Shown: positions 13,474 to 44,300 of the stretch, piece after piece
Layout of the letters: each line of letters starts with the position of its first letter
How positions within the stretch are numbered: the first letter of the stretch is position 1
Source of the DNA: a virus
IMG/VR virus record: IMGVR_UViG_3300008120_000384
Coordinates: 1-46,431 of that record
Direction: 5' to 3' (one strand)
Length of the DNA stretch: 46,431 bases
The notes under the pieces: model-generated
Databases searched by the model: none
What the model was told of the DNA's origin: nothing
Seen by the model: only the letters and a program-made list of their open reading frames with translations
Program-made: the position numbers and the translations under genes

Positions 13474-13863
13474 ATGGCAAGAAAAAGACCAAATATAGAT
13501 ACATTAGTGACAACCCTTCTAAAAGATAGACAGGAATTTAAGAACTTTATAAATAAAGTAATTGAAGATACATTTATTTATAGTTACACACCCAATTCTA
13601 TTTCATTAGATAATGCTACTCAAACTCTTTTTACTGTAAATTTAACAAATAAAAGATTTGTTTTTGAAATATTAGAGGTAGATGATATAAGAGATTACAT
13701 TGATGTATATTTATTTGGAGTAAAACAACCACAAGATAGGTATAATGTGAGTGTGGTTGGAAATAATATAGTTATAGAATTTGTAACGGATATAACAAGA
13801 GTTCCTTTGGAAGTTGTTGCATCTGATTTTTTAGTAAAAGGTAAAATAGTTGAAATAGAATAA
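13474..13863 (+). CDS. Small protein, third copy of the gp15-tail module, 129 residues
   Basis: The N-terminus is basic and helical (MARKRPNIDTLVTTLL). The C-terminal half reads VYLFGVKQPQDRYNV, then NNIVIEFV and FLVKGKIVEIE, parallel to the modules ending the two preceding genes. MAR-type starts are shared with the gp14-like gene and the following giant gene. The stop overlaps the start of the 4285-residue gene by one base (TAATG). Being coupled to the giant fibre suggests a role in attaching or assembling it, which is inference. Confidence 0.55.
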   Translation: MARKRPNIDTLVTTLLKDRQEFKNFINKVIEDTFIYSYTPNSISLDNATQTLFTVNLTNKRFVFEILEVDDIRDYIDVYLFGVKQPQDRYNVSVVGNNIVIEFVTDITRVPLEVVASDFLVKGKIVEIE

Positions 13864-22800: not shown

Positions 22801-25800
22801 GAAGTGCTGCTGATAGATTGCAAGCAAGATTAGTATCTTCTTCGTTTGGATTGGTAATAGATGTTTTATTGAATAGTGGTTCTCAAACAATGATAACTGG
22901 TAGTTTAATACCAAATACAAATCCAAAGATTACATCTGCATATAATTTGTTAGTAAGTAATTCTCAGATGATTATTGATGAAACAATAACATTTATGAGT
23001 TCATCTTGGTCAACATTTGATTATAACCAATCTAAGTGTGAAAGAGATTTAGGATTAATTATTAGTGGAGCTGCATTCGACCTTTTATATGGTGGTAATT
23101 CAGCATCTTTAGTAAATGGTAAGTTTTATTTTGAATCGGCATCAGCAGCAACAGGTTCTCAATTAGACCAAACTATAACAGCAATTAAATACGCTGGTGG
23201 AATTGCTCAGAAGGTTGTTAGAAATATAGAATTAGTAACAGCTTCATTGGAAACATCAGCATCTTATGTATCATTAATTAAGAACAAAGGATTTATTCAA
23301 TCTGAATCAATAGCATATGTAAGTTCTTCTTGGGAAGGATTTGAATATAACGAAGCAAGTTGTAGTAGAGATATTGGATACATTATAGATGCCGTGGCAA
23401 CTGACCTATTATATGGTGGTAATGAAAGAAGTATTGTGGCTGGAAGATATTATTATGATTTCCCATCACAAGCTACTTCAACGCAATTAGAACCAACATT
23501 GACTGGTGTAAGATTCGCTAAAGGAACGGCAATGAATGTAGTTGTTAATAAGCAATTCTTCTCACCAAATTCAAATAACCAAACGGCTTATAACTTAATC
23601 AAAGATAATAAGGAGTTCATTCAGGAAGAAACTGTGGCATTTGTAAACGCTAAATACCCTGAATTGGATTACATTGAATCTAAGTGTAGACGTGATGTTG
23701 GATATATTGTAGATGCCGTAGCAACTGACCTTTTATATGGTGGAAATGAAAGAAGTAATAAAGCTGGTGAATTCTATTATTTATATCCTTCATTGGCAAC
23801 TGAAAATGAGCAAGTAGTTGAAACAACAACTGCTGTTGATTATGCTAGAAGATTAACCGAACAAATAATTAATAGCCAACTAATACCAAAACCACAAATA
23901 ATACCAAATGGTGGCACTCCATCAACTGATATTAATGTAATAGCAACACACGATTTGTTATTGGTAAATAAACCATTCATTCAGGCTGAAACAGTTGCAT
24001 ACGTTTCATCTTCTTGGGTTGGTTTCCAATACAATGAAGCAAGTTGTAGTAGAGATGTTGGTTTCTTAATTGATGCCGTAGCAACGGATGTATTATATGG
24101 CGGTAATCAAAGTAGCGCTCACGCAGCATTGGTATATTTTGAAACAGCATCAGCAGCAACTGGTTCACAATTAGAACCGACTGTAGATGCTATTGATTAC
24201 GCAGCTGGATTAGCAACTAAAGTTATTCAAAACTTAACATTTGTAACAGCTTCACAAATAGTATCCGCATCGGTTGAATTGTTGAGAAACAATAGATACT
24301 TCATACAATCCGAATCTTTATCATATTTGGATGCAGCATGGAGTACATTTGTTTATGATAAAGAAAAATGCAAGAGAGATATTGGTCATATAGTAGATGC
24401 AGCAGCAACTGACCTTTTATATGGTGGTAACGAAAGAAGTGTAACTAGCGGTGAGTTTTATTATAGATATCCATCTAAAGCAACTTTATTAGGTGATGGT
24501 GATGGTGTTGGTCAATTAAAACAAACTATTGATGGTATTAATTACGCAAGTAGAATTTCACAAAAAGTTGCACAAAAAACACAATTCGTAACAGCATCAT
24601 TAGAAGCATCCGCATCATTTGATTTATTGAGAAAAAACAAAGCATTTATTGCAGCGGAAACAATAGAATATGTATCTTCTTCTTGGAGTACTGTTTATTA
24701 CAATCAAGCAAGTTGTTCTCGTGATGTAGGTTATTTAATAGATGCAGCAGCAACTGATGTATTATATGGTGGACAAGAGAGAAGTGTAATAGCTGGTAAC
24801 TTCTATTACTTATTCCCATCAAAAGCAACAAACGCTGGAGTTCCATCCGAACAAAACCAATTAGACCCAACTTTAACTGGTGTAAGATATGCTGGTAGAT
24901 TGGCTAAGAAGGTTGTGGTAAATCCAACATTTGTGGAAGCTTCTGGTTCAGCAATTGGTGGTAGTAAATTATTAAAACTTAACAAATCTCTTATACAAAA
25001 AGAAACAATTACATTCTTGAGTTCGTCTTGGAGTACACTTCAATACAACGAAGCAAGTTGTTCTCGTGATGTAGGATTTATAATTGATGCGGTAAGAACT
25101 GATTTAGTTTATGGTGGTAACGAAAGAAGTATTCAAGCAGGTTCATACTATTATTACATCCCATCAGTTGCAATTAAAGAATCTTATACTGATAACGGAC
25201 AAGTTGGACAGAAAAAACAAACTGTTGATGGTATAAACTTTGCAAGAGGTATTTCTGAAAAAATTGTATCACAAACTCAATTACTAAGACCAGGAACTAG
25301 AAGAATTCAGGCGGTTGATAGATTAAGAAACGCTAAAGAAGAATTAAAACAAAGAGCAATTGGATATACAAATGGAGCATTCCCTTACTTAGTTTATAAC
25401 GAAGCAAGTTGTAGTAGAGATACTGGATTAATTGTGGATGCTTGTTGTACTGATTTGTTCTATGGTGGTAACGAAAGAGCAATAGCAGCTGCATCATCTT
25501 ACTATAATGGACAATTCGGAAGTGCACAAGCAGTAATTTCTTCTCAAAAATTAGAGACTTTGGAAACTAATAGATATTTAAGGACAAGAGCTGAGTTTAT
25601 AGCAGCTGGTGCTCCATTAGAATCATTTGGTTCTCTGATTGTAGCAACTGGTATTGACTACTCTTATAATGGTGCAGGTGTGACGTTTAAGGCGTTACCA
25701 CCAAATCAGGGTGGTAGTGGTGTTGCGGACCCAAGATTTGAAATTACCGAATTGGGTGGTGGTAGAATATTCTTCACATCTGGTAACCAAGATGGTGACT

Positions 25801-26789: not shown

Positions 26790-29700
26790 ATGGCAATTAG
26801 TAATCTTTTATCAAATAGGGTAAGGGTTGTATCACCCAAAAAAGTATCGGCTGATAGGTATCAATTCTTAGATGTCTCTCAGGCCGAACCGAATTTGGGT
26901 GTTCCAAACTTTAGCGCTTCACTATCAGGCTCTCCAGCTATTGTGGTTTCTGATGACCAAGGTAATAGAGGGTTTGTACGTTCTTTAGATTTGGATAGAG
27001 TAGTAGGTACTTTTACTGGTTCTTTTAGTGGAAGTGCTGATTTATCTGGTTCTTTTACGGGTTCTTTTAGTGGAAGTGCTGATTTATCTGGTTCTTTTAG
27101 TGGTTCTTTTTTTGGAGATGGGGCGGGATTATTTAATTTACCGCAGGCTACAAAATTATCATCTGGTTCGGTAACAGCTTCTGTAGCACCTAACTTTGGA
27201 TTTACAGTTCTTTCAATAGAAAGCGGTTCAACATTTACTGGTTCTTTATTTGTAAGTGGAAATGTTGTAATACCATCTGGTAGTGGATACTTTAGTGGTA
27301 GTGGTGAGGGGTTATTTAATATTCCACTTTCAGCACTTAATATTGAATCATTGGTTTCAAGTAGGATTGCTAGTGGTTCAGCAACGGCTTCAATATCGCC
27401 AAATTTAGGTTTAAGGGTTAATACTGGTGTTACTATTAATGACTTTTTGATAGTAACTGGTTCTACTAATCTAAAATCAAATACAAATATTGAAGGTAAC
27501 TTAGACGTTACAAATAATACATTTATACATGGTGACCTTTATGTAGATGATTCTATATATGCTCAGCAATTATTTGTTAGTTATATTTCATCATCTGTAA
27601 TTTATTCATCTGGCTCGAATACATTTGGCGATTCTACGGCAGATAGACAAATGATGACAGGTTCTGTATCCGTAACTGGTTCAATGATTGTAACTGGTTC
27701 TTTATCTGTAAGTGAAAAAATAATTTTCAACCAAGCAACAGGTTCAATATTATCGGCATCGGTAATATTATTCAACCAAGCAACAGGTTCATCTATATCT
27801 GCATCATTTACTGGTTCATTTTTTGGCGATGGTAGAAATTTAGTAAATTTACCACAATCAACAAGATTAGCTTCTGGTTCGGTAACTGCTTCGGTTGACC
27901 CGGCATATGGATTTAGAGTAGAATCTTTATCTCAAGGTTCTGAATTTACTGGTAGTGTTGATATAAGTGGTAGTTTATTTGTATCTCCATTTAGCGGTTC
28001 TATAACTTTAGCATCTGGTTCGAATTATTATGGTGAAGGTAGATATCTAAGAGAAATACCTCGTTCAGCACTTACTGAAGATGCACTAATTAGTACAGAA
28101 ATAAAATCAGGCTCAGTAACAGCATCTGTATCTCCTGTTTATGGATTTAGAGTTGAATCTTTAGCAAGTGGTTCGGAGTTTACAGGTTCTATTGATATAA
28201 GTGGAAGTATTTTTATACCATCTGGTAGTGGTTTCTTTAGTGGTAGTGGTAGAGGATTATTTGATATACCTCGTTCAGCATTATCCTTTGAAATAACAAG
28301 TATTTCAAGTGGTAGTGTAACGGCTTCCGTTTCGCCAACATTCGGATTCAAAGTTGAAGCTCAGGCAAGCGGTTCTGAATTTACCGGTTCAATAAATGTA
28401 AGTGGTAGTTTATTTGTAGAACCTTTTAGTGGTTCTATAACTTTGGCATCTGGTTCATCTTATTATGGTGAAGGTACTTATTTAAGAAACATACCAAGAA
28501 CTGCATTAACTGAAGATGCGTTAATTAGTACTGAAATTAAATCAGGTTCTATAACAGCATCGGTTTCACCTGTTTATGGATTTAGAGTTGAATCTTTAGC
28601 AAGTGGTTCAGAGTTTACTGGAAGTATAGATGTTAGTGGAAGTATTTTTATACCAAGTGGTTCTGGTCTTTTCTCTGGAAGTGGTAGAGGATTATTTGAT
28701 ATACCTCGTTCAGCTTTAGCGCCTGATGCATTATTATCGGCACTTATTTCTAGCGGAAGTGTTACAGCTTCTGTAGCACCGGATTTTGGATTTAAGGTTG
28801 AATCTTTAGTAAGCGGTTCTGAATTTACCGGTTCAGTTGAAGTTAGTGGAAGTATTACAATACCATCTGGCTCTGGGTATTTTAGTGGTAGTGGTGAGGG
28901 ATTATTTAATATACCTTTATCAGCTCTTAATATAGAGTCTTTGATATCAACTAGAATAGCAAGTGGTTCTGTAACAGCATCTATTGCACCTGATTTTGGA
29001 TTTAGAGTGAATACGTTTTCAGCATTTAGTGGAAGCTTTATAGTTTCATCATCTGCTAGAAATGTATTATCATCATCTTTACTGACAGAATTTAATGTAA
29101 CAAATAGTGGTAATAGTTCTTATTTAATAAATGGTGAATCAAATCCAACTTTAACATTAGTTAGAGGTGTTGCATATAAATTTAACATAAACGCATCTGG
29201 ACATCCATTCTACATCAAAACAGTATCTAGCACAGGTACTTCAAATCAATATACAGAAGTATTAAATAATGGTGATGATGTTGGTGTTGTTACTTTAACA
29301 TTACCAACTAATGCACCAAACACTTTATATTATAATTGCCAATTACATTCGGCAATGGCTGGGCAATTAAATATAGTTGATGCTATTACGATTCCTGCTG
29401 AAATTACATTTATTGGTGATACAAATATTACTGGTGCGTTAGCAGTAAGTTCAAGCATATTTGCTTATGGAAATATAGAATTAGGATCTGGTTCGGCATT
29501 TAGTGGTAGTGGTAGAAATCTTTTTGATATTCCACAATCAGCTTTTACTGGAGATGCCTTCAGAATAGCAAGTGGTAGCGTAACCGCTTCAGTATCTCCA
29601 AATTTTGGATTCAGAGTTGAATCATTAGAAAGTGGTTCTCAATTAACAGGAAGTGTTGATATAACTGGTAGTTTATTTGTAAACCCTTATAGTGGTTCTA

Positions 29701-32700
29701 TAAAATTAGCTTCTGGTTCGGCATATTATGGTGAAGGTACTTATTTAAGAAATATTCCAAGAACGGCTCTTACTGAAGATGCACTAATTAGTACAGAAAT
29801 TAAATCAGGTTCAGTAACAGCTTCTGTATCACCTAATTTTGGATTTAGAGTAATATCTTTTGATAGTGGTTCTGAATTTACTGGTAGCGTTAATATAACA
29901 GGCAGTTTAACTGTTGAAAGTGGTTCAATTATAATTGGTGATGGACAAGGATTAAGAAATATACCACTATCAGCTCTTGCTGAAGAAGTTGTAGCTGCAA
30001 CCAAAATAGTTTCAGGCTCCGTAACAGCATCTGTTTCACCTGTTTATGGATTTAGAGTAGAATCTGCTGATAGTGGTTCCGAGTTTACGGGTTCTATTGA
30101 TGTAAACGGAAATATAACTGTAGCTAGTGGTTCTTATTTTGTTGGTGATGGTAGATATCTTTCAAATATCACAATAGCAAATTTAGCGATAGATTCAACA
30201 AAAATATTTAGTGGTTCAGCAACGGCTTCAATTGCACCAAATACGGGCTTATTAGTAAATACAGGTTTAACTGTTTATGATTTCTTAGTAGTAACTGGTT
30301 CTTCTAAATTAGGAGTTGTTTCTGGCTCATTCTTTAGTGGTAGTGGTAGAAGTTTATTTGATATTCCTATTACTGCTGTTGTTGGTGATGTATTCAAAAT
30401 AGCAAGTGGTAGTGTAACCGCATCCGTAACACCTGATTTTGGATTCAAAGTAGAATCTACTGCAAGTGGTTCTCAAATTACTGGTTCTGTAAGAATTACT
30501 GGTAGTTTGGTAGTTGAACCATACAGCGGTTCTATAAAATTAGCATCTGGTTCTTCATATTATGGTGAGGGTACATATCTTAGAAACATTCCAAGAACCG
30601 CACTTACTGAAGATGCATTAATTAGTACCGAAATAAAATCAGGTTCTGTTACAGCTTCTGTAGCTCCTGATTTTGGATTTAGAGTTGTTTCACCTGATAG
30701 TGGTTCTCAAATTACGGGTTCGGTAAGAATTACTGGTAGTTTAGTGGTTGAACCTTACAGTGGTTCAATTCAATTAGCATCGGGTTCAAATTATTATGGT
30801 GAAGGTGCATATTTAAGAAACATACCTCGTTCAGCACTTACCGAAGATGCATTAATATCAGCAGAAATTAAATCTGGGTCAGTAACAGCTTCAGTATCAC
30901 CTGATTATGGTTTTAGAGTTATAACTCCATTTACATCTTCAATAATTGGTGATGTATATAGTACTGAAATAGCATCTCAGTTTACTGGTTCAGTATCTGT
31001 AAGTGGAAGTTTATATGTAAACGAAATAAGTGGTGGTTTATATTTACAATCATCTTCAAATTATTATGGTGAAGGTAAATACCTAAGAAATATACCTCGT
31101 TCAGCACTTACTGAAGATGCCCTTATATCAAATGAAATAAAATCTGGTTCAGTAACCGCATCGGTTTCACCGGCTTTTGGATTTAAGGTAGAATCTGCTG
31201 ATAGTGGCTCTCAATTTACTGGAAGTGTTGAAGTAAGTGGTAGTATTGTAATACCATCTGGTAGTGGATACTTTAGTGGTAGTGGTGAAGGATTATTTAA
31301 TATACCAAGAGCTGCATTTGCTCCTGATGCCTTAACATCAAATATTTTATTTAGTGGAAGTGTAACTGCTTCTGTGGCACCTGATTTTGGTTTCAAAGTA
31401 AATAGTAATGTAACCATAGAAGGTGGACTATATGTTTCTGAATCTTCAAAATTACAAAGTACACAAATTAGTGGCGGACTTTATGTAACAGGAAATCAAT
31501 ATTTAGATGGTGATTTATATGTTGAAGGCAAAATAGTAACTACTGAATTATTTACACAATTTATTTCATCATCAATAATTTATTCATCTGGTTCAAATGT
31601 ATTTGGGGATGATGTATCAGATACTCAACAATTAACGGGCTCTGTTTTAATAACTGGTTCTTTGGATGTTCAAAATAAATTTACATTTGTTGAGGCAAGT
31701 GGTTCATCAATTTCAGCATCATTTACTGGTTCATTCTTTGGTGATGGTGCAAATTTATTTAATTTACCGCAGGCAACTAAATTAGCAAGTGGTTCTGTAA
31801 CAGCATCAGTAACACCTGAATTTGGATTTGTTGTTGTATCTGAAACAAGTGGTTCACAAATTACAGGAAGTTTAGGTATAACAGGAAGTTTAATTGTAGA
31901 TGCGGTAACAAGTGGTTCTCAATTTAGTGGAAGTGTTTCCATATCTGGAAGTTTATTTATTGAAAAAGGAATTGTTCAATTAGCATCTGGTTCATTCTTC
32001 TCTGGTTCTGGTGAAAAATTATTTAATATTCCTAGAGCAGCACTTACACCTGATGCATTAGTATCACCTTTAATTGGAAGTGGTTCTGTAACGGCTTCAA
32101 CTGATCCTGATTTTGGATTTAGAGTTGTAACGCCATTTACTGGTTCTGATTATGGTTCTGAATTTACTGGTTCTGTTGATGTAAGTGGAAGTATTAGAGC
32201 ATTTTTCTTTATAGGAGATGGTTCTCAAATCACTAATGTACAAGCAGCAGCTGCACCTTTCATAGCAAGTGGTTCGGCAACAGCATCGGTAGCAAATGGA
32301 TTTGATTTTAGAGTAATTACCGCAGCAACTGGTTCGGAAATAGGTTCTGAATTTACTGGTTCAGTAGATGTGAGTGGTAGTGTTAGAGCATTTAGTTTTA
32401 TAGGAGATGGTTCGCAACTTACAAATGTACAAGCAGCAGCTGCACCTTTCATCGCTAGTGGTAGTGCAACAGCATCCGTAGCAAATGGATTTGATTTTAG
32501 AGTTATAACTGCGGCAACGGGTTCTCAGTTTGGTTCTGAATTTACAGGTTCGGTTGATGTTAGTGGTAGTGTTAAGGCATTCAGTTTTATAGGTGATGGT
32601 TCTCAATTAACAAATGTACAAGCGGCAGCGGCACCTTTCATCGCTAGTGGTAGTGCAACTGCATCCGTAGCAAGTGGAGAATTATTTGTAGTTAATACAG

Positions 32701-35700
32701 CTCCTTTATCTGGTTCATACAAATCTCAATTCACATCATCTGTAGCAATTAGTGGTTCAATTACCGCTTCATTATATTATGGTGATGGTGGTGGATTATT
32801 TAACATCCCACCTGAAGCTATTGAAAACTTAGAGTTATTTAAGATTAACTCTGGTTCTGGTGTAGCAATTATTGACCCAAATAAATTAGATGTAAATGTA
32901 CCAATAACAGCAGCACGTTATGACGGTGATGGTAGTGGATTATTTAACATCCCAGCTGAAGCACTTGAAGACCTTCAATTAGATAGAATTATATCTGGTT
33001 CTGCTGAAGCAGTAATATCACCAAACAAAGGATTAGAAATTAATACTAAAGTAAGTGTATCTCAATCCCTTAATGTTAGTGGTGGTTTATTTGTAACTGG
33101 TGGTAATGTTGTATTATCAAGTGGTAGTGCATATTATGGTGATGGTAGTGGTCTTACAAACATTAATATTTCAAATTTATCATTTGAAACATTCATATTA
33201 AAGAGCGGTTCATTCACAGCATCTATTTCTCCTGATAAAGGATTTGTAGTAAACGCTTCAGCAAGTATTTGGGGTGGTTTATATGTTGAAGAAAATGTTG
33301 TAGCAGAAAATGTAACTGCAAGTGGTATTGTATTTGCACCATTACACAGTGGTTCATTCTTAGGAACATATACATTCAAAGGAGAAGGACCAACAGCAAG
33401 TGTAGACTATGATATTTTAAGATACGATTCAAATAGAGGATACTATATACCACAACCTGAATACTCTCAATTTGAAACTGTAGGATTTAGTAATGTTAGT
33501 GTATTAACAATTGTACACAATTTAGATTTACTATATCCTGTTGTTCAAATTTATGAAACTGGTTCTGAAGCTCAAGTAATACCAGCTGGAATTGAATCAT
33601 TGGATAGTAATACAATTAGAATTACATTTAGTGGATTAACTTCTGGACATGCTGTTATTGGAAGTGGTGGTAGTGTAATAAGTGGAACAATACAAGGTGA
33701 TAGAGTTATTGGTACTGTACTTTCAGCATCTTACGCTGATAATGCAAGATTAGCAGCAACTGCATCTTCTCTATTAGGATTTGATAGTGCTTCACTTGCA
33801 GAAATATTAGATACAACAAACTTTGTAAGGAACAATCAAACATCTTCAATGAGTGTGTTCTTTGCAGTAAGTTCATCACATGCACAAACCGCATCTTATG
33901 CATTATTTGCAGCAAATGCAGCAAATGTAGATACATCATTATTTGTTCAGAATTCACAAACTGCTTCAATGACAGTTGGAACAGCATCGTTTGCATTAAC
34001 TGCATCATATGCATTAAATGCAACAGTTGATGCTAGTGAATATGTAAAAAATATTTATACAAGCTCCGCATATGTTTATTCAGCATCATTTGCATCTATT
34101 GCACAATTTGCATTAAACGCAGCTAGTGTTGATACGGCATCATTTATAAACGCATATAAAGATAGTACAATATTTGCAAACTTTGTAGTAACGGGAAGTT
34201 TAGGAGCAAGTGGTAGTATCTATGTAGATAATCTATATACATCATCTGCATCTGATTTTGTTGTAGTTTGGAATGATGTTACTAAAAAATTAGAAGCTAA
34301 AAACGTACAACAAGCAGCAGGTTCATCTGGTACGGGTGGCACATCAGGTACTGATGGCTCATCTGGTTCATCGGGTTCAGCTGGCACAAGCGGTACAACA
34401 GGAACTTCAGGAAGTAGTGGCTCAAGTGGCACATCCGGTTCATCTGGAAGTAGCGGTTCTAGTGGCTCAAGCGGAAGTAGTGGTTCAAGCGGCACATCTG
34501 GCTCAAGCGGGTCTTCTGGTACATCTGGTACAAGTGGCACTGATGGCTCAAGTGGTTCTAGTGGTTCAAGCGGCACATCCGGTTCATCTGGAAGTAGCGG
34601 CAGTAGCGGTACATCTGGTACATCTGGCACAAGCGGCACAAGCGGTACGTCTGGCACATCCGGCACTAGCGGTTCAAGTGGTACAACAGGTAGAGAAGGT
34701 GGAAGATTATTCATTGTAAATAATGTAGGATTTAATTATTCTTTTGATGGATATGTTGGTAATTTACCAACACTAACATTAGTTAGGGGAGAATTATTTT
34801 ATTTTGATGTAAGTGGAGTTTCTGCATTACATCCATTTGCATTGAGATTAGCAAATGGTGATACAAATTCAGTACCTGGTACAATAAATAATGATCCTGT
34901 TAATGGTTTATATGGAACTACTGACTTAATATCTTATAGAGTTCCTGAGGATGCACCCGATAGTATTGTTTATCAATGTGCAGTCCATTCATCAATGATT
35001 GGTACTATTCAGATTGTAAACAAATATGGCACCTCTGGCACAAGTGGCACGTCTGGAACAAGTGGCACGTCTGGAACAAGTGGCACATCTGGGTCAAGCG
35101 GCACAAGCGGTACAAGCGGCACAACAGGTTCCGCTGGTACATCTGGGTCATCTGGCACAAGCGGCACATCTGGCACAAGCGGCACATCTGGCACAAGCGG
35201 CACAAGCGGCACCTCTGGCACAACAGGTTCAGCTGGTACATCTGGTTCATCGGGTTCGTCTGGCTCAAGCGGAAGTAGTGGCTCAAGCGGCACGGCTGGT
35301 AGAGAAGGTGGAAGATTATTTGAAGTAACAAATGTTGGATTTAATTACGCAATTAATGGATATCCTGGATATTTTCCAACCATTACAATCGTAAGAGGAG
35401 AATTATTTTATTTTGATGTAAGTGGAATTTCAGCAACCCACCCATTTGCGTTAAGATTAGCAAATGGTGATACAACTGCTGTTCCTGGTACAACCAATAA
35501 TGATGCTACAAATGGATATTCAAATGGACCGGTATTAATTGAATATAGAGTACCTGAAGATGCTCCAAATAGCATTGTTTATCAATGTGCAGTTCATGCA
35601 TCAATGATTGGTACTATTGAAATTGTTAATAAGTACGGAACATCTGGCACATCAGGAACAAGCGGCACCTCTGGCTCAAGTGGTACATCTGGCTCAAGTG

Positions 35701-38700
35701 GTACATCTGGCTCAAGCGGGTCATCGGGAACAACTGGTTCTGAAGGTACAAGCGGCACAGCTGGTAGTGGTGGTACATCAGCAACCAGTGGTAGTGGTGG
35801 TACTTCTGGCACAAGCGGCTCATCCGGAACTCAGGGTACAAGCGGCACATCTGGCACAAGCGGTTCATCTGGAACATCAGCAACGGCTGGTAGTGGTGGA
35901 ACGAGTGGCTCTGCTGGTAGTGGTGGTTCTGCTGGTTCTAGTGGCACAAGTGGCACATCTGGTTCTGGTGGTTCAAGCGGCACAACAGGTTCTTCTGGAA
36001 CTGGAGGCACGGGTGGTAGTTCAGGTACATCTGGCACGTCTGGCACAACGGGTACATCGGGCACATCGGGTTCAAATGGTTCATCTGGCACAAGCGGATT
36101 AGATGGTTCATCTGGAACATCAGGAAGTGCGGGAAGTAGCGGCTCTAGCGGTACAACTGGTTCAAGCGGTAGCTCTGGCACAAGTGGCACATCTGGCTCT
36201 GGTGGTACTGCTGGTACAAGCGGCAGTAGTGGTACATCTGGCACAAGCGGCTCATCAGGAACAACTGGTTCATCTGGCACAAGCGGAAGTAGTGGTTCAT
36301 CTGGCACAAGCGGAAGTAGTGGCTCAAGCGGCACTTCTGGCTCAAGCGGTTCATCTGGTACAACAGGTTCAGCTGGCACAAGTGGAAGTAGTGGTTCAAG
36401 CGGCACATCGGGTTCATCTGGCACATCTGGAAGTGCAGGTTCATCTGGCTCATCTGGTACGAGCGGTTCTACGGGTAGTGCGGGTTCATCTGGTTCAGCT
36501 GGCACGTCTGGTTCAGCTGGCACGTCTGGCACATCTGGTAGCGATGGTTCGTCTGGCTCAAGCGGAAGTTCTGGTTCAGCTGGCACAAGCGGTACAACAG
36601 GTTCAGCTGGCACAAGCGGAAGTTCTGGCACCTCTGGCACAAGTGGTACTGATGGTAGTAGTGGAAGCGCAGGTTCGTCTGGCACTTCTGGCTCAAGCGG
36701 CACAACAGGTTCGGATGGTACATCTGGTTCATCAGGTTCATCTGGTAGCGGTGGAAGCTCTGGCACAAGTGGTACTGATGGTAGTAGCGGAAGCGCAGGC
36801 TCAAGCGGTACAAGCGGTACAACAGGTTCAGCAGGCACAAGCGGCACATCCGGTTCATCGGGTACATCAGCAATTGATGGAACATCTGGTATAGATGGCA
36901 CAAGTGGTACTGATGGTAGTAGTGGTAGCGCAGGCTCAACTGGTTCTGCTGGAACAAGCGGCACAACAGGTTCATCTGGCTCATCTGGTTCTTTCGGTAC
37001 TTCTGGCACATCTGGTGTTGATGGCACAAGCGGCACTGATGGTTCTAGTGGTAGTAGTGGAAGTTCTGGCACAAGCGGTAGCTCTGGATCTGGAGGTTCA
37101 AGCGGCACAGCTGGTACATCTGGTTTAGATGGAACTTTCTTTGGAAGTTCTGGCACAAGCGGTTCTTCCGGTTCTTCGGGTACGAATGGAAGTTTTGGCA
37201 CAAGTGGATTAGATGGTTCAAATGGTACAACGGGTTCTGCTGGTACATCTGGTTTAGATGGTACATATTTTGGTAGTAGCGGTACAAGTGGCACGTCTGG
37301 CAGTTCTGGAATTGATGGTACAAACGGCTCAAATGGTTCAAGTGGTACATCAGGTTCAAGTGGCACAGGCGGCACAGCTGGTACATCTGGTTTAGATGGA
37401 ACTTTCTTTGGAAGTTCTGGCACAAGCGGTTCTTCTGGGTCATCTGGTACAAGTAGTTCAGCAGGTACATCGGGTATTTCCGGCGTAAATGGTACGGATG
37501 GTACAAGTGGCAGCGGAGGTACTAGTGGATTGGATGGTACATTCTTTGGTTCATCTGGCACATCCGGTTCGTCTGGATTAAGTGGTTCAAGTGGTTCAGC
37601 TGGCACAAGCGGAAGCGCTGGTACAGCTGGAAGTGCAGGTTCTTCTGGTACAAGCGGATTGGATGGTACATTCTTTGGTAGTAGTGGTACAAGTGGCTCC
37701 TCAGGAGGAACTGGTTCAAGCGGAACAGCAGGTACGGCTGGTTCAAGTGGCACAAACGGTACATCAGGAACGTCTGGTTTAGATGGAACGTTCTTTGGTT
37801 CAAGCGGGTCATCGGGTACATCTGGTATAACCGGTTCTAGCGGCTCAAGTGGTTTAACTGGTACTGATGGTAGCGCTGGAACATCTGGTACAAGCGGCTT
37901 AGATGGTACATTCTTCGGTTCATCTGGTACTTCTGGATTTGCTGGCTCAAGTGGTACATCTGGAGTAGATGCAACAAATGGTACAAGCGGTACAACAGGC
38001 ACATCTGGCACAAGCGGTTTAGATGGCACATTCTTTGGTTCATCAGGTACTTCTGGTTTGACTGGTACAAGTGGTACTGATGGTGCTGGTAGTTCTGGTA
38101 CAAGCGGCGCAAGTGGTACAAATGGCACATCAGGAACATCTGGTTTAGATGGTACATTCTTTGGTAGTAGTGGTACATCGGGAGAAGCTGGTTCATCCGG
38201 TACATCAGGCGCAGGTACATCGGGTACAAGCGGATTGGGTTCATCGGGTACATCTGGAACGTCTGGTGTTGATGGTACATTCTTTGGTTCATCGGGTACT
38301 TCTGGAGAAGCTGGTTCATCGGGTACATCGGGAGCAGGTACATCCGGTACATCGGGTATAACTGGTTCGAATGGAACATCTGGCACAAGCGGTTTAGATG
38401 GTACATTCTTCGGTTCATCAGGTACTTCTGGTATAGCAGGAACAAGTGGTAGCTCTGGTGTTGATTCTACTAATGGCACAAGCGGTACAACAGGAACTTC
38501 CGGTACTTCTGGTTTGGATGGTACATTCTTTGGTACAAGCGGAAGTAGTGGCACGGCAGGCACATCTGGAATTACAGGTACAAGCGGTCTAACAGGTACA
38601 GCTGGTACATCTGGCACAAGCGGATTAGATGGTACTTTATTTGGTTCGTCTGGTACAAGCGGCACAGGTGGAACATCTGGTGCATCTTCATCAGCTGGTA

Positions 38701-39224
38701 CTTCCGGTACATCTGGTTTAGGTACAAATGGTACTTCAGGATTTTTGAATTTGACTGGAACTACTAATAATGGTTTAATTACTTACGCGGGTGGTAATTC
38801 TGGTGAAGTTGAATCAAATTTAACTTTTGATGGAACAACTTTAGCTGTAACCGGAAATGTGACTGTAACAACATCATTAGATGCAACTACTTATATAGCA
38901 TCAACAACTTATAGAGAAACATTTAGTAATTTAGGAACAGGTGGTTCATTTACTATTGATTTAGCAACGGCAAATAACTTTACAAGAACATTAAATGGAA
39001 ATGCAACGGTAACAATATCAAATACTCCAGCATCTAGAGCATTTGGTTTTACATTGGCATTAACAAATGGTGGAGCATATACTATAACTTGGCCTGGTTC
39101 ATTAAATTGGCCATCTGGAACAGCTCCTACATTGACATCTGCTGGATTAGATATTATTGTAATTTATACTTATGATGGTGGAGCTACATTTAATGGATTT
39201 GTAGTAGGAAAAAATATGAGTTAA
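26790..39224 (+). CDS. Giant collagen-like tail fibre, 4144 residues
   Basis: Residues about 70-2200 are built from some 25 modules centred on SGSVTASVSPxFGFRV, with TGSxxxSGS strands and GEGxYLRNIP turns, suggesting a long beta-helical or beta-prism shaft. A cupredoxin-like domain with full copper ligands interrupts it (residues 765-864). Residues 2230-2300 form a beta domain (LTIVHNLDLLYPVVQIY), followed by an Ala/Ser-rich HAQTASYA region. Then come collagen-like Gly-x-y tracts at residues about 2511-2636, 2747-2838 and 2950-3985, separated by two more cupredoxin-like domains. The last 160 residues are a beta domain starting FLNLTGTTNNG. A trimeric long fibre is likely, with the C-terminus distal if it follows usual fibre polarity. 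The start is chosen because the ATG follows a promoter-like gap and no closer ATG gives a natural N-terminus. Confidence 0.85.
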   Translation: MAISNLLSNRVRVVSPKKVSADRYQFLDVSQAEPNLGVPNFSASLSGSPAIVVSDDQGNRGFVRSLDLDRVVGTFTGSFSGSADLSGSFTGSFSGSADLSGSFSGSFFGDGAGLFNLPQATKLSSGSVTASVAPNFGFTVLSIESGSTFTGSLFVSGNVVIPSGSGYFSGSGEGLFNIPLSALNIESLVSSRIASGSATASISPNLGLRVNTGVTINDFLIVTGSTNLKSNTNIEGNLDVTNNTFIHGDLYVDDSIYAQQLFVSYISSSVIYSSGSNTFGDSTADRQMMTGSVSVTGSMIVTGSLSVSEKIIFNQATGSILSASVILFNQATGSSISASFTGSFFGDGRNLVNLPQSTRLASGSVTASVDPAYGFRVESLSQGSEFTGSVDISGSLFVSPFSGSITLASGSNYYGEGRYLREIPRSALTEDALISTEIKSGSVTASVSPVYGFRVESLASGSEFTGSIDISGSIFIPSGSGFFSGSGRGLFDIPRSALSFEITSISSGSVTASVSPTFGFKVEAQASGSEFTGSINVSGSLFVEPFSGSITLASGSSYYGEGTYLRNIPRTALTEDALISTEIKSGSITASVSPVYGFRVESLASGSEFTGSIDVSGSIFIPSGSGLFSGSGRGLFDIPRSALAPDALLSALISSGSVTASVAPDFGFKVESLVSGSEFTGSVEVSGSITIPSGSGYFSGSGEGLFNIPLSALNIESLISTRIASGSVTASIAPDFGFRVNTFSAFSGSFIVSSSARNVLSSSLLTEFNVTNSGNSSYLINGESNPTLTLVRGVAYKFNINASGHPFYIKTVSSTGTSNQYTEVLNNGDDVGVVTLTLPTNAPNTLYYNCQLHSAMAGQLNIVDAITIPAEITFIGDTNITGALAVSSSIFAYGNIELGSGSAFSGSGRNLFDIPQSAFTGDAFRIASGSVTASVSPNFGFRVESLESGSQLTGSVDITGSLFVNPYSGSIKLASGSAYYGEGTYLRNIPRTALTEDALISTEIKSGSVTASVSPNFGFRVISFDSGSEFTGSVNITGSLTVESGSIIIGDGQGLRNIPLSALAEEVVAATKIVSGSVTASVSPVYGFRVESADSGSEFTGSIDVNGNITVASGSYFVGDGRYLSNITIANLAIDSTKIFSGSATASIAPNTGLLVNTGLTVYDFLVVTGSSKLGVVSGSFFSGSGRSLFDIPITAVVGDVFKIASGSVTASVTPDFGFKVESTASGSQITGSVRITGSLVVEPYSGSIKLASGSSYYGEGTYLRNIPRTALTEDALISTEIKSGSVTASVAPDFGFRVVSPDSGSQITGSVRITGSLVVEPYSGSIQLASGSNYYGEGAYLRNIPRSALTEDALISAEIKSGSVTASVSPDYGFRVITPFTSSIIGDVYSTEIASQFTGSVSVSGSLYVNEISGGLYLQSSSNYYGEGKYLRNIPRSALTEDALISNEIKSGSVTASVSPAFGFKVESADSGSQFTGSVEVSGSIVIPSGSGYFSGSGEGLFNIPRAAFAPDALTSNILFSGSVTASVAPDFGFKVNSNVTIEGGLYVSESSKLQSTQISGGLYVTGNQYLDGDLYVEGKIVTTELFTQFISSSIIYSSGSNVFGDDVSDTQQLTGSVLITGSLDVQNKFTFVEASGSSISASFTGSFFGDGANLFNLPQATKLASGSVTASVTPEFGFVVVSETSGSQITGSLGITGSLIVDAVTSGSQFSGSVSISGSLFIEKGIVQLASGSFFSGSGEKLFNIPRAALTPDALVSPLIGSGSVTASTDPDFGFRVVTPFTGSDYGSEFTGSVDVSGSIRAFFFIGDGSQITNVQAAAAPFIASGSATASVANGFDFRVITAATGSEIGSEFTGSVDVSGSVRAFSFIGDGSQLTNVQAAAAPFIASGSATASVANGFDFRVITAATGSQFGSEFTGSVDVSGSVKAFSFIGDGSQLTNVQAAAAPFIASGSATASVASGELFVVNTAPLSGSYKSQFTSSVAISGSITASLYYGDGGGLFNIPPEAIENLELFKINSGSGVAIIDPNKLDVNVPITAARYDGDGSGLFNIPAEALEDLQLDRIISGSAEAVISPNKGLEINTKVSVSQSLNVSGGLFVTGGNVVLSSGSAYYGDGSGLTNINISNLSFETFILKSGSFTASISPDKGFVVNASASIWGGLYVEENVVAENVTASGIVFAPLHSGSFLGTYTFKGEGPTASVDYDILRYDSNRGYYIPQPEYSQFETVGFSNVSVLTIVHNLDLLYPVVQIYETGSEAQVIPAGIESLDSNTIRITFSGLTSGHAVIGSGGSVISGTIQGDRVIGTVLSASYADNARLAATASSLLGFDSASLAEILDTTNFVRNNQTSSMSVFFAVSSSHAQTASYALFAANAANVDTSLFVQNSQTASMTVGTASFALTASYALNATVDASEYVKNIYTSSAYVYSASFASIAQFALNAASVDTASFINAYKDSTIFANFVVTGSLGASGSIYVDNLYTSSASDFVVVWNDVTKKLEAKNVQQAAGSSGTGGTSGTDGSSGSSGSAGTSGTTGTSGSSGSSGTSGSSGSSGSSGSSGSSGSSGTSGSSGSSGTSGTSGTDGSSGSSGSSGTSGSSGSSGSSGTSGTSGTSGTSGTSGTSGTSGSSGTTGREGGRLFIVNNVGFNYSFDGYVGNLPTLTLVRGELFYFDVSGVSALHPFALRLANGDTNSVPGTINNDPVNGLYGTTDLISYRVPEDAPDSIVYQCAVHSSMIGTIQIVNKYGTSGTSGTSGTSGTSGTSGTSGSSGTSGTSGTTGSAGTSGSSGTSGTSGTSGTSGTSGTSGTSGTTGSAGTSGSSGSSGSSGSSGSSGTAGREGGRLFEVTNVGFNYAINGYPGYFPTITIVRGELFYFDVSGISATHPFALRLANGDTTAVPGTTNNDATNGYSNGPVLIEYRVPEDAPNSIVYQCAVHASMIGTIEIVNKYGTSGTSGTSGTSGSSGTSGSSGTSGSSGSSGTTGSEGTSGTAGSGGTSATSGSGGTSGTSGSSGTQGTSGTSGTSGSSGTSATAGSGGTSGSAGSGGSAGSSGTSGTSGSGGSSGTTGSSGTGGTGGSSGTSGTSGTTGTSGTSGSNGSSGTSGLDGSSGTSGSAGSSGSSGTTGSSGSSGTSGTSGSGGTAGTSGSSGTSGTSGSSGTTGSSGTSGSSGSSGTSGSSGSSGTSGSSGSSGTTGSAGTSGSSGSSGTSGSSGTSGSAGSSGSSGTSGSTGSAGSSGSAGTSGSAGTSGTSGSDGSSGSSGSSGSAGTSGTTGSAGTSGSSGTSGTSGTDGSSGSAGSSGTSGSSGTTGSDGTSGSSGSSGSGGSSGTSGTDGSSGSAGSSGTSGTTGSAGTSGTSGSSGTSAIDGTSGIDGTSGTDGSSGSAGSTGSAGTSGTTGSSGSSGSFGTSGTSGVDGTSGTDGSSGSSGSSGTSGSSGSGGSSGTAGTSGLDGTFFGSSGTSGSSGSSGTNGSFGTSGLDGSNGTTGSAGTSGLDGTYFGSSGTSGTSGSSGIDGTNGSNGSSGTSGSSGTGGTAGTSGLDGTFFGSSGTSGSSGSSGTSSSAGTSGISGVNGTDGTSGSGGTSGLDGTFFGSSGTSGSSGLSGSSGSAGTSGSAGTAGSAGSSGTSGLDGTFFGSSGTSGSSGGTGSSGTAGTAGSSGTNGTSGTSGLDGTFFGSSGSSGTSGITGSSGSSGLTGTDGSAGTSGTSGLDGTFFGSSGTSGFAGSSGTSGVDATNGTSGTTGTSGTSGLDGTFFGSSGTSGLTGTSGTDGAGSSGTSGASGTNGTSGTSGLDGTFFGSSGTSGEAGSSGTSGAGTSGTSGLGSSGTSGTSGVDGTFFGSSGTSGEAGSSGTSGAGTSGTSGITGSNGTSGTSGLDGTFFGSSGTSGIAGTSGSSGVDSTNGTSGTTGTSGTSGLDGTFFGTSGSSGTAGTSGITGTSGLTGTAGTSGTSGLDGTLFGSSGTSGTGGTSGASSSAGTSGTSGLGTNGTSGFLNLTGTTNNGLITYAGGNSGEVESNLTFDGTTLAVTGNVTVTTSLDATTYIASTTYRETFSNLGTGGSFTIDLATANNFTRTLNGNATVTISNTPASRAFGFTLALTNGGAYTITWPGSLNWPSGTAPTLTSAGLDIIVIYTYDGGATFNGFVVGKNMS
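27160..33260 (+). repeat. About 25 SGSVTASV modules in the fibre shaft
   Basis: By eye I count 25 copies of the element SGS-(V/A)-TAS-(V/I)-x-P-x-(F/Y)-GFRV. Most are followed by SGSxFTGSxxxSGS and by either a YYGEGxYLRNIPR or an FSGSGxGLFNIP turn. The last three copies are divergent. The same module type reappears near 41,590-41,830 in the third giant fibre. Confidence 0.85.
32200..32690 (+). repeat. Three near-identical 63-residue tandem repeats
   Basis: The element GDGSQ-(L/I)-TNVQAAAAPFIASG repeats three times. Codons for the FIASG isoleucine begin at 32262, 32451 and 32640, exactly 189 bases apart. Protein sequence is almost unchanged between copies, so these are the most recent duplications in the shaft. 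Confidence 0.85.
34321..34698 (+). repeat. Collagen-like Gly-x-y tract A
   Basis: About 125 residues of G-(T/S)-(S/T) triplets without proline, lying between an Ala/Ser-rich segment and the second cupredoxin-like domain. Local GC content is clearly higher than in the surroundings. Confidence 0.9.
35026..35308 (+). repeat. Collagen-like Gly-x-y tract B
   Basis: About 93 residues of G-(T/S)-(S/T) triplets linking the second and third cupredoxin-like domains. Both tracts A and B end in a GREGGRLF junction that leads into the next cupredoxin-like domain. Confidence 0.9.
35638..38745 (+). repeat. Collagen-like Gly-x-y tract C, over 1000 residues
   Basis: About 1035 residues of mostly G-(T/S)-(S/T) triplets with occasional Gly-Leu-Asp, Gly-Thr-Asp and Gly-Ser-Ala. 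I see no proline. From 37,122 the tract takes on a regular super-repeat marked by GLDGTFFG. The antisense strand is open over most of this length purely because of the repeat. Confidence 0.9.
37122..38665 (+). repeat. GLDGTFFG super-repeat, 13 copies
   Basis: Thirteen copies of G-(L/V)-DGT-(F/Y/L)-FG. The Gly codon of GTFFG begins at 37131, 37260, 37398, 37536, 37665, 37785, 37905, 38025, 38151, 38274, 38400, 38520 and 38631. Spacings are 37 to 46 residues, most often 40-43. Each GTFFG adds one residue to the Gly-x-y register, so each is a break in the triplet pattern. Confidence 0.9.
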
Positions 39225-40096
39225 TGGATATGGGAATATTTAGAAGATTATCATCGACAGAGGAAGTTTTACCATTCGAAATTACAGTAACAGTAAGTGC
39301 AGGTCAAAATTTTACTTTACCAATATCGGATTATGGAGCTTTAACACCAAACTTTTCAGTATCTTGGGGAGATGGTAATAGTGATACTATAACATCATCA
39401 ACGCAAGCTCAAAGAATACATACATATGCTTCGGCAGGAACTTATACAATCAGTATTTTAGGATTTATGCCTGTTTTTTCTGTAAATAATAATTCTTCAA
39501 TAAGAACTTTAATAAGAAGTATTGTTAGTTTTGGAAATGTTGGTTTAAGACGTATAGATTTTTATGGATGTAGTTTTATAACGTCTATACCATCATCAGG
39601 AACTGGATTATCCGAAACTGTAATATTTACAAATTTTATGCGTTCAACTGGTTTAACATCTATTCCTTCTAATTTTTTTGATGCTTCTGTAAACGCAACA
39701 ACTTTTACTGACTCTTTTTCATTTTTGAGTGGATTAACATCTATACCAAATGGATTATTTAATAATAATGTTAATGCTACAATTTTTTCATCAACATTTA
39801 ACGCATGTGTAAACTTAGCAACAGTACCATCAACTTTATTTGACCAAAATGTTAATGTAATAAACTTTTCTTCTTGTTTTAGAAACTGTCGTTCATTAAC
39901 ATCTCCATTACAATTTACATTTAATACTCAAGTTACTACTTTTGCAAATATTTACAATATGGGAACAACATCAAATTCAATGGCAGGAACGGCACCTACA
40001 TTGTGGTTAAGAGTTCCTGAACCATATGGGTTTGCAGCATTTAGAAATTGTATTAATTTAACTAATTATGCAGCAATACCATCAAATTGGAAATAA
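39224..40096 (+). CDS. PKD-like and leucine-rich-repeat protein, possible adhesin
   Basis: A 290-residue protein starting within the stop of the giant fibre (TAATG). Residues about 20-80 look like a PKD-type beta sandwich: FSVSWGDGNSDTI, then HTYASAGTYTISILG. Residues about 140-225 contain three tandem 27-residue units beginning GLTSIPSNFF, GLTSIPNGLF and NLATVPSTLF, with F-x-x-x-F and Cys positions typical of BspA/DUF285-type leucine-rich repeats. Both domain types usually bind proteins or sugars at cell surfaces. There is no signal peptide, consistent with a virion component. Its place directly after the long fibre and before a tail assembly chaperone-like gene suggests a fibre-tip or receptor-binding role. 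A TAA at 40094-40096 ends it two bases before the next gene. Confidence 0.7.
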   Translation: MDMGIFRRLSSTEEVLPFEITVTVSAGQNFTLPISDYGALTPNFSVSWGDGNSDTITSSTQAQRIHTYASAGTYTISILGFMPVFSVNNNSSIRTLIRSIVSFGNVGLRRIDFYGCSFITSIPSSGTGLSETVIFTNFMRSTGLTSIPSNFFDASVNATTFTDSFSFLSGLTSIPNGLFNNNVNATIFSSTFNACVNLATVPSTLFDQNVNVINFSSCFRNCRSLTSPLQFTFNTQVTTFANIYNMGTTSNSMAGTAPTLWLRVPEPYGFAAFRNCINLTNYAAIPSNWK

Positions 40097-40098
40097 TT

Positions 40099-40542
40099 AT
40101 GTATCTAAGAATTAAAAATAATGAAATAGTTTATCCCTACTCTTTACAAAAATTAAGAGAAGATAATTATAATGTTAGTTTTCCTTCTGAAATGACAGAA
40201 TCATTGATGAGAGAATGGGATATATATGAAGTAAGACAAACTCCAAAGCCAAACGATTATACAAAAAATATTTCAGAAGATACACCAATACTGATAGATG
40301 GTGTATATTATCAAAATTGGATTCAAACAAATGCTACACAATCAGAAATTGATATAAGAATTTCTGATAAATGGGAAGAAGTAAGAAATCAAAGAAATGA
40401 ATTATTACAGGAGTGTGATTGGACACAATTAGCAGATATCCCACAATTAACAAAAGATTTATGGAGTACTTACAGACAACAACTTAGAGATATTACAACT
40501 CAATCAAATCCATTTTCAATCGTCTGGCCTGTAAAACCCTAA
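40099..40542 (+). CDS. Phage tail assembly chaperone-like protein
   Basis: The C-terminal 60 residues carry W-x-x-VRNQRNELLQECDW, then TQLADIP, WSTYRQQLRDI and a final FSIVWPVKP. This is the pattern of the phage tail assembly chaperone family (Phage_tail_APC in Pfam, as I recall it), found beside tail fibre genes. I use ATG 40099, giving 147 residues and starting MYLRIKNNEIVYPYSL. An upstream in-frame TTG at 40087 would overlap the previous gene and add only four residues, so it is less likely. Members are thought to help fold or attach fibres. Here it follows the fibre and adhesin genes, which fits that job. Confidence 0.75.
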   Translation: MYLRIKNNEIVYPYSLQKLREDNYNVSFPSEMTESLMREWDIYEVRQTPKPNDYTKNISEDTPILIDGVYYQNWIQTNATQSEIDIRISDKWEEVRNQRNELLQECDWTQLADIPQLTKDLWSTYRQQLRDITTQSNPFSIVWPVKP

Positions 40543-41319: not shown

Positions 41320-44300
41320 ATGAAGTTTGTAGGTAACAACCCTAATGGATTAAATTTAGTAAGCAAAAGCTTAATTGAGCTCGATATTGACGGGCAAAGT
41401 AAAGTTGCGTTTTCAAATGAATTTTTGAGTGTAGCAGGAAATATAACTGCTTCTCAAAATATTAAAGCTCAAAATATTAGTGCTTCATTAATAAGTGGTT
41501 CTACAATTGTAGGTACAACATTTAGTGGTTCACAATTTACAGGTTCATTTAGTGGCTCTTTTATTGGAGATGGTGGTGGATTAACAAACATCACTCAAAT
41601 AGCAAGTGGTTCTACGGTATTAAGTGTAGACCAATTAGGAGCTAACTTAACAGGTTCATTAAAAGTATCTGGTTCAGTATTTATTTCATCATCAATTACA
41701 GCTTCTTTATTCAGAGGTGATGGTAGTGGACTGTTTAACATTCAAGCTGATTCAATAGGGGATATTAATAGATTAAAATCTGGTTCAGCTCAAGCAATTA
41801 TTTCACCAAATAGAGGTTTAGAAATAAATACCGGAGTTAGTATTAAAGAATCATTACAAGTAAGTGGTTCTCAAACAATATTTGGTAATTTAGCTGTAAG
41901 CGGTTCTGAAGTAATATTTGGTAATTTAGCAGTAACGGGTTCTCAAAATATTTTAGGAAGTGTTTATGTTACGGGTTCACAATCAATTAGAGGCGAATTA
42001 GTAGTTACAGGTTCGGCTAGAGTTGGTGATTTGACTGTAACTGGTAATGAAACAATAACTGGTAACTTAAATGTTGCTGGTAAAATTACTACAACCGAAT
42101 TACAAGCAACATATGTAACATCATCAATAATTTATGCATCTGGTTCAAATAAATTTGGTGATGCAACGTCTGATAGACACGAATTTACCGGAAGTGTTGG
42201 TATAAGCGGTTCAATATTCATAACAGGTGATACTTTACCAACTGATAATACAACAAATGAAGTATTAGTTCTTAATACAACAACGGGAAGGATAGCAAGA
42301 AGATTTGCGGCAGCAACATCGGGTACATCTGGTACATCTGGTACAAGTGGCTCAAGCGGAAGTAGCGGCTCAAGTGGAACAACAGGTTCATCTGGCACAA
42401 GCGGCTCATCAGGAAGTAGTGGTTCAAGCGGCTCATCAGGAAGTAGTGGAAGTAGCGGTTCAAGCGGCTCATCAGGAAGTGGTGGTACATCCGGCTCATC
42501 TGGTTCAAGCGGAAGTAGTGGCTCATCGGGTAGTAGTGGGTCTTCAGGCACACGTGGTACATCTGGTTCAAGCGGAAGTAGTGGCTCAAGTGGCTCAAGC
42601 GGAAGTAGTGGCTCAAGTGGCTCAAGCGGTAGTGGTGGAACATCTGGCTCAAGTGGTAGTAGTGGAAGCAGTGGCTCAAGCGGAAGCAGCGGCTCAAGCG
42701 GAAGCAGCGGCTCAAGCGGAAGCAGCGGCTCAAGCGGCTCAAGCGGAAGCAGTGGAAGTTCTGGTTCATCTGGTTCTTCTGGACAAGCAGCTGGCGCAAG
42801 ATATAATTTTTCAACTACAATAACTGATACAGATCCGGGTAATGGTATAATTCAATATAGTAGTGCAACGATAGGTTCGGTTGCTTTTATATACATAGAT
42901 AATTTAGATGGACAGGGTAATACCCAAACAACTTGGTATGATACTTGGGATGATAGTACAACAACTACAAATAGAGGTACTTTAACAATAACAAGCAGAG
43001 ATGGTGGAACTGTTGTAAACACTTTTACAATAACAGGCGCAGTTGTTGTAGCAACTGGATATTATAAAATACCTGTTTCATACGTTGCGGGCACATTACC
43101 TTCAAACGGAGCACAATTAATAGTTTCATTTACAAGAACAGGTAATTCTGGTACATCTGGCACAAGTGGAAGTAGTGGAGTTAGCGGTTCATCTGGGTCT
43201 AGCGGCTCAAGCGGAAGTTCTGGTTCATCTGGAAGTAGTGGAAGTAGCGGCTCAAGTGGTTTAACGGGTGTTGGTGGTACGTCTGGAACAAGCGGTTCAT
43301 CTGGCAGTAGCGGCAGTAGCGGGTCATCTGGTACAAGCGGAAGTAGTGGCTCTTCCGGCACACGTGGTACATCTGGCTCAAGTGGCTCAAGCGGTATAAC
43401 TGGAGCTGGTGGTTCGAGTGGGTCTAGCGGTAGCAGCGGCTCAAGCGGAAGCAGCGGTTCAAGCGGTAGCAGTGGCTCAAGCGGCTCAAGCGGAAGTTCG
43501 GGTTCGTCTGGCTCAAGTGGAGTAAGTGGTAGCGCAGGTTCTTCTGGAAGTTCAGGTTCATCGGGCTCAAGCGGTAGCAGCGGTTCATCTGGTTCATCTG
43601 GAAGTAGTGGCTCAAGCGGAAGCAGTGGCTCAAGCGGAAGCAGTGGCTCAAGCGGAAGCTCAGGTTCATCTGGTACATCTGGTTCAAGCGGACAAGGTGG
43701 TGGTATAAGATATAATTTTACTACATCCACAACCGATGCAGATCCTGGCACTGGTGTTGTAGCATATAATAACATATCAATAGCATCTGTATCTCAAATA
43801 TTCATAGATAATACTGATATTGGTTCTAATAGTTTAACATCTTGGTTTGATACTTGGGATGATAGTACAACAACTTCTAATAGAGGTACTCTTACTTTAG
43901 TTAGTAGAGATGGTGGAACTGTGGTAAACGTATTTAGAGTAAATGGTGTAGTAACAGCTGCTACTGGATATTATAAAATACCTGTTGCTTATTTGAGTGG
44001 TACACTTCCTTCAAATGGAGCACAACTTATAGTACAATTCAGTAGAAGTGGAGACTCGGGTTCATCGGGTTCAAGCGGTAGCAGCGGCTCTAGTGGTTCA
44101 TCTGGGTCTAGCGGCTCAAGCGGAAGTTCTGGCTCATCTGGTTCAAGCGGCACATCTGGTTCTAGCGGCTCAAGCGGAAGTTCTGGCACATCTGGTTCAA
44201 GCGGCACATCTGGTTCTAGCGGTTCAAGCGGCACATCTGGTTCAAGCGGAAGCTCAGGTTCATCTGGTTCTAGCGGCTCAAGCGGTTCTAGCGGCTCAAG

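Follow-up and report, generated by a model that had tools for sequence, protein, structure and literature searches.

Genomic Setting of the Fiber Gene

The analyzed stretch of viral DNA (positions 1 to 46,431 of the IMG/VR record IMGVR_UViG_3300008120_000384, hereafter called the window) encodes a portal protein, a T4-type major head protein, a head–tail adaptor, and a sheath stabilizer resembling T4 gp15, and the similarities of these head and tail genes show a myovirus-like tail module. The head protein shares 51–54% identity with its counterparts in a 484-kb uncultured phage and Microcystis phage Mel-JY01, and 50% with that of Flavobacterium phage immuto. A tail-fiber protein of 4144 amino acids is encoded on the plus strand at 26790..39224 (Pfam Collagen, 1.2e-113, and PHROG matches), and the gene that precedes it matches a short tail fiber PHROG. 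Its location in a cluster of tail genes and the fiber domains at its ends place the protein among the phage collagen-like tail fibers.

An ORF of 4285 amino acids (13863-26720) displays many partial matches to short tail fiber and tail fiber families (phrog_4527 and phrog_5342). The gene that follows the fiber gene (39224-40096) has a PKD-like start (a weak Pfam match) succeeded by SIPSNFFDASVNATTFTDSF-type repeats, matches phrog_9915, and possibly encodes another surface-binding protein. Farther downstream lie a plus-strand gene (40087..40542) whose product carries a phage tail assembly chaperone domain (PF16778) and a second collagen-like tail-fiber ORF (41320-46431, 1704 amino acids, open at the end of the window) that contains Gly-x-y tracts and no GTxFG site.

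Domain Organization of the Fiber

The N-terminal part of the 4144-residue fiber consists of Gly/Ser-rich beta-type repeats, which are followed by copper-protein-like inserts, Gly-x-y tracts, and a C-terminal domain. The fiber matches Pfam Collagen (PF01391) in 13 stretches with 371 bits (cut-off 27.2), and this match and a register walk agree on glycine at every third residue over at least 20 triplets, as in collagen repeats. The Gly-x-y tracts are split by two copper-protein-like domains, and the beta domain is terminal. A match to phrog_677 (baseplate wedge-tail fiber connector) covers amino acids 722-865 and tail fiber PHROGs match the C-terminus. A blue-copper-like ligand pattern (HPF...C..H..M) was identified in three domains, one of which (29202-29357) overlaps the phrog_677 match while the other two (34830-34997 and 35439-35606) sit between Gly-x-y tracts; copper binding is putative.

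The last part of the Gly-x-y region starts with a tract of ~498 amino acids (35637..37121, plus strand) that contains no G3G or G1G break, no register shift, and only three Gly-to-Ala changes. The end of the tract and the conserved C-terminal beta domain occupy 38727..39221 (plus strand); the domain was modeled with a pLDDT of 90, and it resembles phage tail-fiber proteins and matches PHROGs. Pro and basic residues are nearly absent from the Gly-Ser-Thr tract between these two features, and the upstream tract is similar in composition.

An Evenly Spaced Array of Breaks

The initial annotation had described 13 GTFFG, GTYFG, or GTLFG sites at intervals of 37–46 residues, each preceded by Gly-(Leu/Val)-Asp, and the register walk along the plus strand reproduced all of them with their coordinates. 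The sites extend over amino acids 3448-3948 (37122-38645) and consist of 11 GTFFG, one GTYFG, and one GTLFG. Ten carry the sequence GLDGTFFG (37122..37145, 37389..37412, 37527..37550, 37656..37679, 37776..37799, 37896..37919, 38016..38039, 38142..38165, 38391..38414, and 38511..38534; sites 1, 3–9, 11, and 12), and the remaining three are GLDGTYFG (site 2, 37251..37274), GVDGTFFG (site 10, 38265..38288), and GLDGTLFG (site 13, 38622..38645), such that the motif directly follows G-L-D at 12 sites and G-V-D at one. GTFF forms a four-residue unit between perfect triplets and each site therefore moves the glycine register by +1, which agrees with the earlier claim of one added residue per site; a break with perfect triplets on both sides is also what defines a natural collagen interruption.

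The successive spacings are 43, 46, 46, 43, 40, 40, 40, 42, 41, 42, 40, and 37 residues (mean 41.7, SD 2.5). The coefficient of variation of 0.06 compares with values of at least 0.21 across 200,000 random placements, and when segments shorter than nine triplets were forbidden none of 200,000 placements was as regular as the array. The even spacing is not due to chance. Spacings other than 3n + 1 are explained by minor G1G breaks, one of which (Gly-Ala(-Gly), 38082..38087, plus strand) lies 19 residues past site 8 in the register walk; others are found at 38208, 38232, 38331, and 38715, and Gly-to-Ala/Ser changes are likewise present in the tract. An AlphaFold2 single-chain model of a stretch with four sites reached a pLDDT of 35, which gives no confidence in the modeled structure.

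The Array Is Conserved in a Family of Phage Fibers

A search of IMG/VR with a degenerate DNA pattern for G-(L/F/S/P)-D-G-T-F-F-G returned at least 120 stretches. At least 113 sequences, the window included, carry five or more sites in one ORF; the search for such arrays that the initial annotation had suggested thus places the same array in at least 112 further IMG/VR loci. Clustering at 90% identity over the C-terminal 125 amino acids resulted in 48 clusters, with identities down to 36%, that contain 6–15 sites per array among the matches listed. The 443 single spacings in these clusters have a mean of 39.8 residues (SD 3.9) with modes at 37, 40, and 43, and a coefficient of variation of 0.097 compared with 0.84 under random placement. 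Even under a null model that required at least 10 triplets per segment, 46 of the 48 clusters were too regular. Variants of the motif, used in a further search, added eight arrays (<90% identity) with a spacing of 40.5 ± 4.1 residues, one of which has 16 sites. Random spacing in relatives, which the initial annotation had named as evidence against a regular super-repeat, was found neither in the 48 clusters (39.8 ± 3.9) nor in the eight further arrays. The segments between breaks measure 9–17 triplets across the arrays, usually 10–15, and vary even between relatives.

All loci were retrieved by the motif search and the p-values refer to regularity within arrays. Since every array found belongs to one homologous fiber family, the clusters do not represent independent inventions and the statement on spacing holds for that family. 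Bacterial and archaeal genomes contained 41 matches, all of them single and none in a Gly-x-y context, indicating chance occurrences. A tblastn/blastn search with the array (low-complexity filter on) identified no named phage with an array and returned only two 735-kb uncultured records, and no site was present in the whole records of Microcystis phages Mel-JY01 and Mel-JY34, Flavobacterium phage immuto 3-5A, LR756508, and Roseobacter phage CRP-603.

A Bipartite Tract with Interchangeable Break Types

The array part of the tract contains 523 G3G and 132 G1G breaks in 19,427 residues across the family, whereas the upstream Gly-x-y sequence, of similar composition, contains no G3G, 13 G1G, and 29 G4G breaks in 22,229 residues. 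The upstream tract was delimited by a composition walk that stops early in some members, and it is free of GTxFG by definition, but every other G3G break is absent as well. The Gly-x-y tract is therefore bipartite, with a broken array toward the C-terminal domain and an upstream part without G3G breaks. The cassette has the consensus G-[LVFQK]-[DN]-G-T-[FYLM]-F-G-S-S-G-T-S-G and is restricted to the ~400–550 residues before the C-terminal domain. Among 470 G3G breaks in a collagen context, 466 are of the form T-x-F and four are TFx.

Most gaps between site pairs that lie 60–93 residues apart hold a mid-gap break (GTFNG, GTFAG, GTFVG, or GTSAEG), with a few wide gaps that lack a substitute (L067, L088, and L011). 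In some clades GTSAEG extends the ruler both upstream and downstream, as in L004, where the order is AE-44-AE-41-AE-41-FF-39-FF-37-AE-40-FF-42-FF. Other breaks often fill the empty slots at the same spacing, indicating that it is the break itself, more than the aromatic residues, that is periodic. The proposal of an aromatic ring at regular intervals is thereby divided: the regular super-repeat stands, but the aromatics are not its periodic element, as GTSAEG, GTFAG, GTFNG, and GTFVG occupy slots. The minor Gly-Ala-Gly and Gly-Leu-Gly breaks gather in the middle of the repeat (109 of 121 at offsets 13–25). Past the last site of the array in L001, L002, L022, L072, and others, another break type (GTNAPGFSSG, GTSFNGVTSG, and similar sequences) recurs ahead of the C-terminal domain, and lone variant cassettes (GKDGNFLGSSGTSG, GVDGSFYGSSGTSG, and GKDGTFFGSSG) are found in other phage collagens.

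These observations bear on the idea that the sites are locks for registration and nucleation, with aromatic clusters that fix the register and renucleate a weak, proline-free Gly-Ser-Thr helix and with any flexibility being incidental. A tract almost without Pro, Lys, and Arg would miss the ordinary register signals, the Phe, Tyr, Leu, and Met residues at the sites are hydrophobic, and in other phages (L176 and L177) single cassettes lie near where a collagen tract begins. The upstream tract of ~500 residues, however, does not differ in composition and yet contains none of these sites, and the nonaromatic GTSAEG occupies slots in some arrays, which makes an explanation by locks unlikely, though it deserves consideration.

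The Spacing Appears to Be Maintained Rather Than Copied

A regular array could also arise as a functionless by-product of unequal recombination that multiplied a unit of ~120 bp, the spacing being the length of the unit. Tandem Repeats Finder reports a period of 126 bp, the copy number ranges from 6 to 16 among relatives, and adjacent spacers are slightly more alike (64% DNA identity, compared with 62% for nonadjacent spacers and 59% between arrays). Recent tandem duplication should leave near-identical neighboring DNA units, but only one of 1901 spacer pairs is >85% identical. The spacers have diverged to the level seen between arrays and have changed in length by single triplets, yet the spacing of ~40 residues and the motif were kept, and a nonhomologous type of break holds the same spacing; a mere recombination by-product is accordingly most improbable.

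Spacing differences between related phages mostly amount to 3 or 6 residues. For pairs with 40–60% C-terminal identity, 16–20% of the spacings agree exactly, against 14.5% in random pairs, and random pairs show an equal or larger spread; no autocorrelation of spacings was seen (-0.08 ± 0.06). Few spacings match exactly between distant relatives, yet all of them lie near 40 residues, indicating that the length is held and not merely inherited. The motif keeps its amino acids while its Gly, Thr, and Ser residues are encoded by varying synonymous codons, which points to selection at the protein level. Overall, with the neutral indel rate compared roughly, the sequence pattern looks like upkeep of both spacing and motif at the level of the protein.

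Comparison with Known Collagens and Collagen-Like Proteins

The tract is almost without proline and basic residues, and the case for a triple helix therefore comes from its Gly-x-y periodicity. This composition leaves room for a different fold, in which the Gly-Ser-Thr tract would make a stalk of the polyglycine-II type, or one that is disordered and perhaps glycosylated, and the sites would be short turns or beta elements of it. No tract of this kind is represented among the matches to experimentally solved structures, and the low-confidence single-chain model (pLDDT 35) has short strands near the sites. Against such a fold stand the strict three-residue period of glycine and the Pfam Collagen match, as well as a collagen-like spore protein with 45% Ser/Thr in its collagen region that is assigned to a 200-nm stalk seen by electron microscopy (PMC11952670). 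In addition, chains of a 735-kb uncultured phage (LR756501) contain both Gly-Ser-Thr tracts and canonical Gly-Pro-x collagen, which supports, but does not prove, that Gly-Ser-Thr tracts are collagen. A noncollagen fold is considered very unlikely.

Phage LR756501 (L175/L176) resembles the window in its Gly-Ser-Thr tracts and in variant cassettes (GKDGSFLGSSGTSG and GVDGTFYGSSGSSG), whereas in the stretch that was read the cassettes are single and scattered, form no array, and the tracts are mixed with Gly-Pro-x collagen. In this stretch (LR756501.1, 392566-425000), several very large fiber-like ORFs combine two kinds of tract, Gly-Ser-Thr and Gly-Pro-Gln/Thr collagen, with inserted globular domains and lone GxDG(S/N/T)F(L/Y)G cassettes. 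A match to a giant ‘spindle fibril’ in the PDB was rejected as a relative because it is ordinary Gly-Ala-Pro collagen.

The EPcl proteins of E. coli prophages are trimeric phage fibers in which globular domains flank a Gly-x-y stalk, and electron microscopy revealed a hinge at the junction of their coiled coil and collagen (PMC3368898). The window fiber, a predicted trimer, belongs to the same broad class by its Gly-x-y stalk, but EPcl collagen is rich in Pro and charged residues and contains no Phe or Tyr at all (PMC3368898), whereas the array is nearly free of Pro and periodically interrupted by aromatic breaks; the window fiber is consequently not of the EPcl type. BclA and F-BclA also display a C-terminal domain on a Ser/Thr-rich Gly-x-y stalk and, compared by description, differ in that the available text reports no periodic aromatic breaks (PMC11952670). 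Interruptions in animal collagens (MBL, C1q, and type IV collagen) resemble the array in being short breaks with the helix continuing on both sides (PMC9898670). The bend at the Gly-Gln-Gly of MBL reaches 85 degrees in one peptide and is 11–19 degrees in others, and the triple helix of C1q is kinked by an extra residue (PMC9898670). These breaks in C1q and MBL are single (PMC9898670), whereas the array consists of 6–16 evenly spaced copies of one cassette at one end of the tract.

No GTFFG in a collagen was found in the openly accessible literature searched. The array is real and conserved; collagen-like phage fibers were already known and the evenly interrupted array is new. Collagen breaks have mostly been studied singly and in animal proteins, and here a widespread phage family provides 6–16 near-equidistant copies.

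A Possible Jointed Stalk

Because known single breaks are able to bend a triple helix, the array can be read as a series of rods with bend points. The distal stalk may thus be jointed, with collagen segments of 10–15 triplets adjoining the C-terminal domain, a reading of the sequence that we favor and regard as plausible, if just short of probable. A cassette after about every 12 Gly-x-y triplets would add one residue to every chain, and in a homotrimer all three chains would break at the same level, so that they would be back in register on both sides. Each break would close one short triple-helical segment, and the two aromatics per chain (six per trimer) might pack against one another as a small knot and so keep the three chains together. 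Collagen rises by 0.29 nm per residue; the interval of ~12 nm given in the initial annotation is obtained if this value applies, and a stalk that bends at the breaks would be composed of rods of ~10–13 nm each. The C-terminus is presumably the distal end, as in phage fibers in general, and the array could then act as a semiflexible tether from which the C-terminal domain searches the host surface, with the unbroken upstream tract as a stiff stalk behind it.

That GTSAEG can stand in at some slots suggests that the joint would matter more than the aromatics, whose strict conservation in turn suggests some specific function as well. Conservation beyond the needs of a hinge and the single cassettes elsewhere suggest a specific role in packing or binding. 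Another reading is that the sites are repeated binding sites, whose spacing would provide avidity and at which each aromatic ring would bind a ligand such as a host glycan, another fiber, the phage tail, or a chaperone. Two aromatic or hydrophobic residues and their flanks are indeed strongly conserved, each fiber has 6–16 copies near its presumed distal end, and a neighboring gene encodes a tail assembly chaperone domain. However, breaks without aromatics can occupy the slots, and segments that change by whole triplets (9–17) turn successive sites to different sides under any collagen symmetry, which does not match a rigid lattice. A strict docking lattice for the sites is unlikely on this pattern, and repeated binding sites are a distinctly doubtful explanation of the array.

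For the jointed stalk, a more specific formulation is that selection keeps ~12 triplets between register breaks whatever the type of break, with a jointed distal part and a stiff stalk behind; this ruler is put forward tentatively, as a possibility that may well prove wrong. If true, it would represent a natural rule for building segmented collagen. The array is relevant to how very long phage fibers position their tips, and broken and unbroken tracts of similar composition within one chain offer a natural comparison for effects on register, stability, and bending. The cassettes may also provide modules for designed collagens.

Two minor features were noted in the DNA of the array. A long antisense ORF (35831-38665) overlies the same stretch and is probably a by-product of the Gly-Ser/Thr codons. 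The two Phe codons of the motif are position-biased in the window (37122-38645) and its relatives, with TTC in 320 of 338 cases at the first position and TTT in 444 of 511 at the second, an order that avoids a run of six T.
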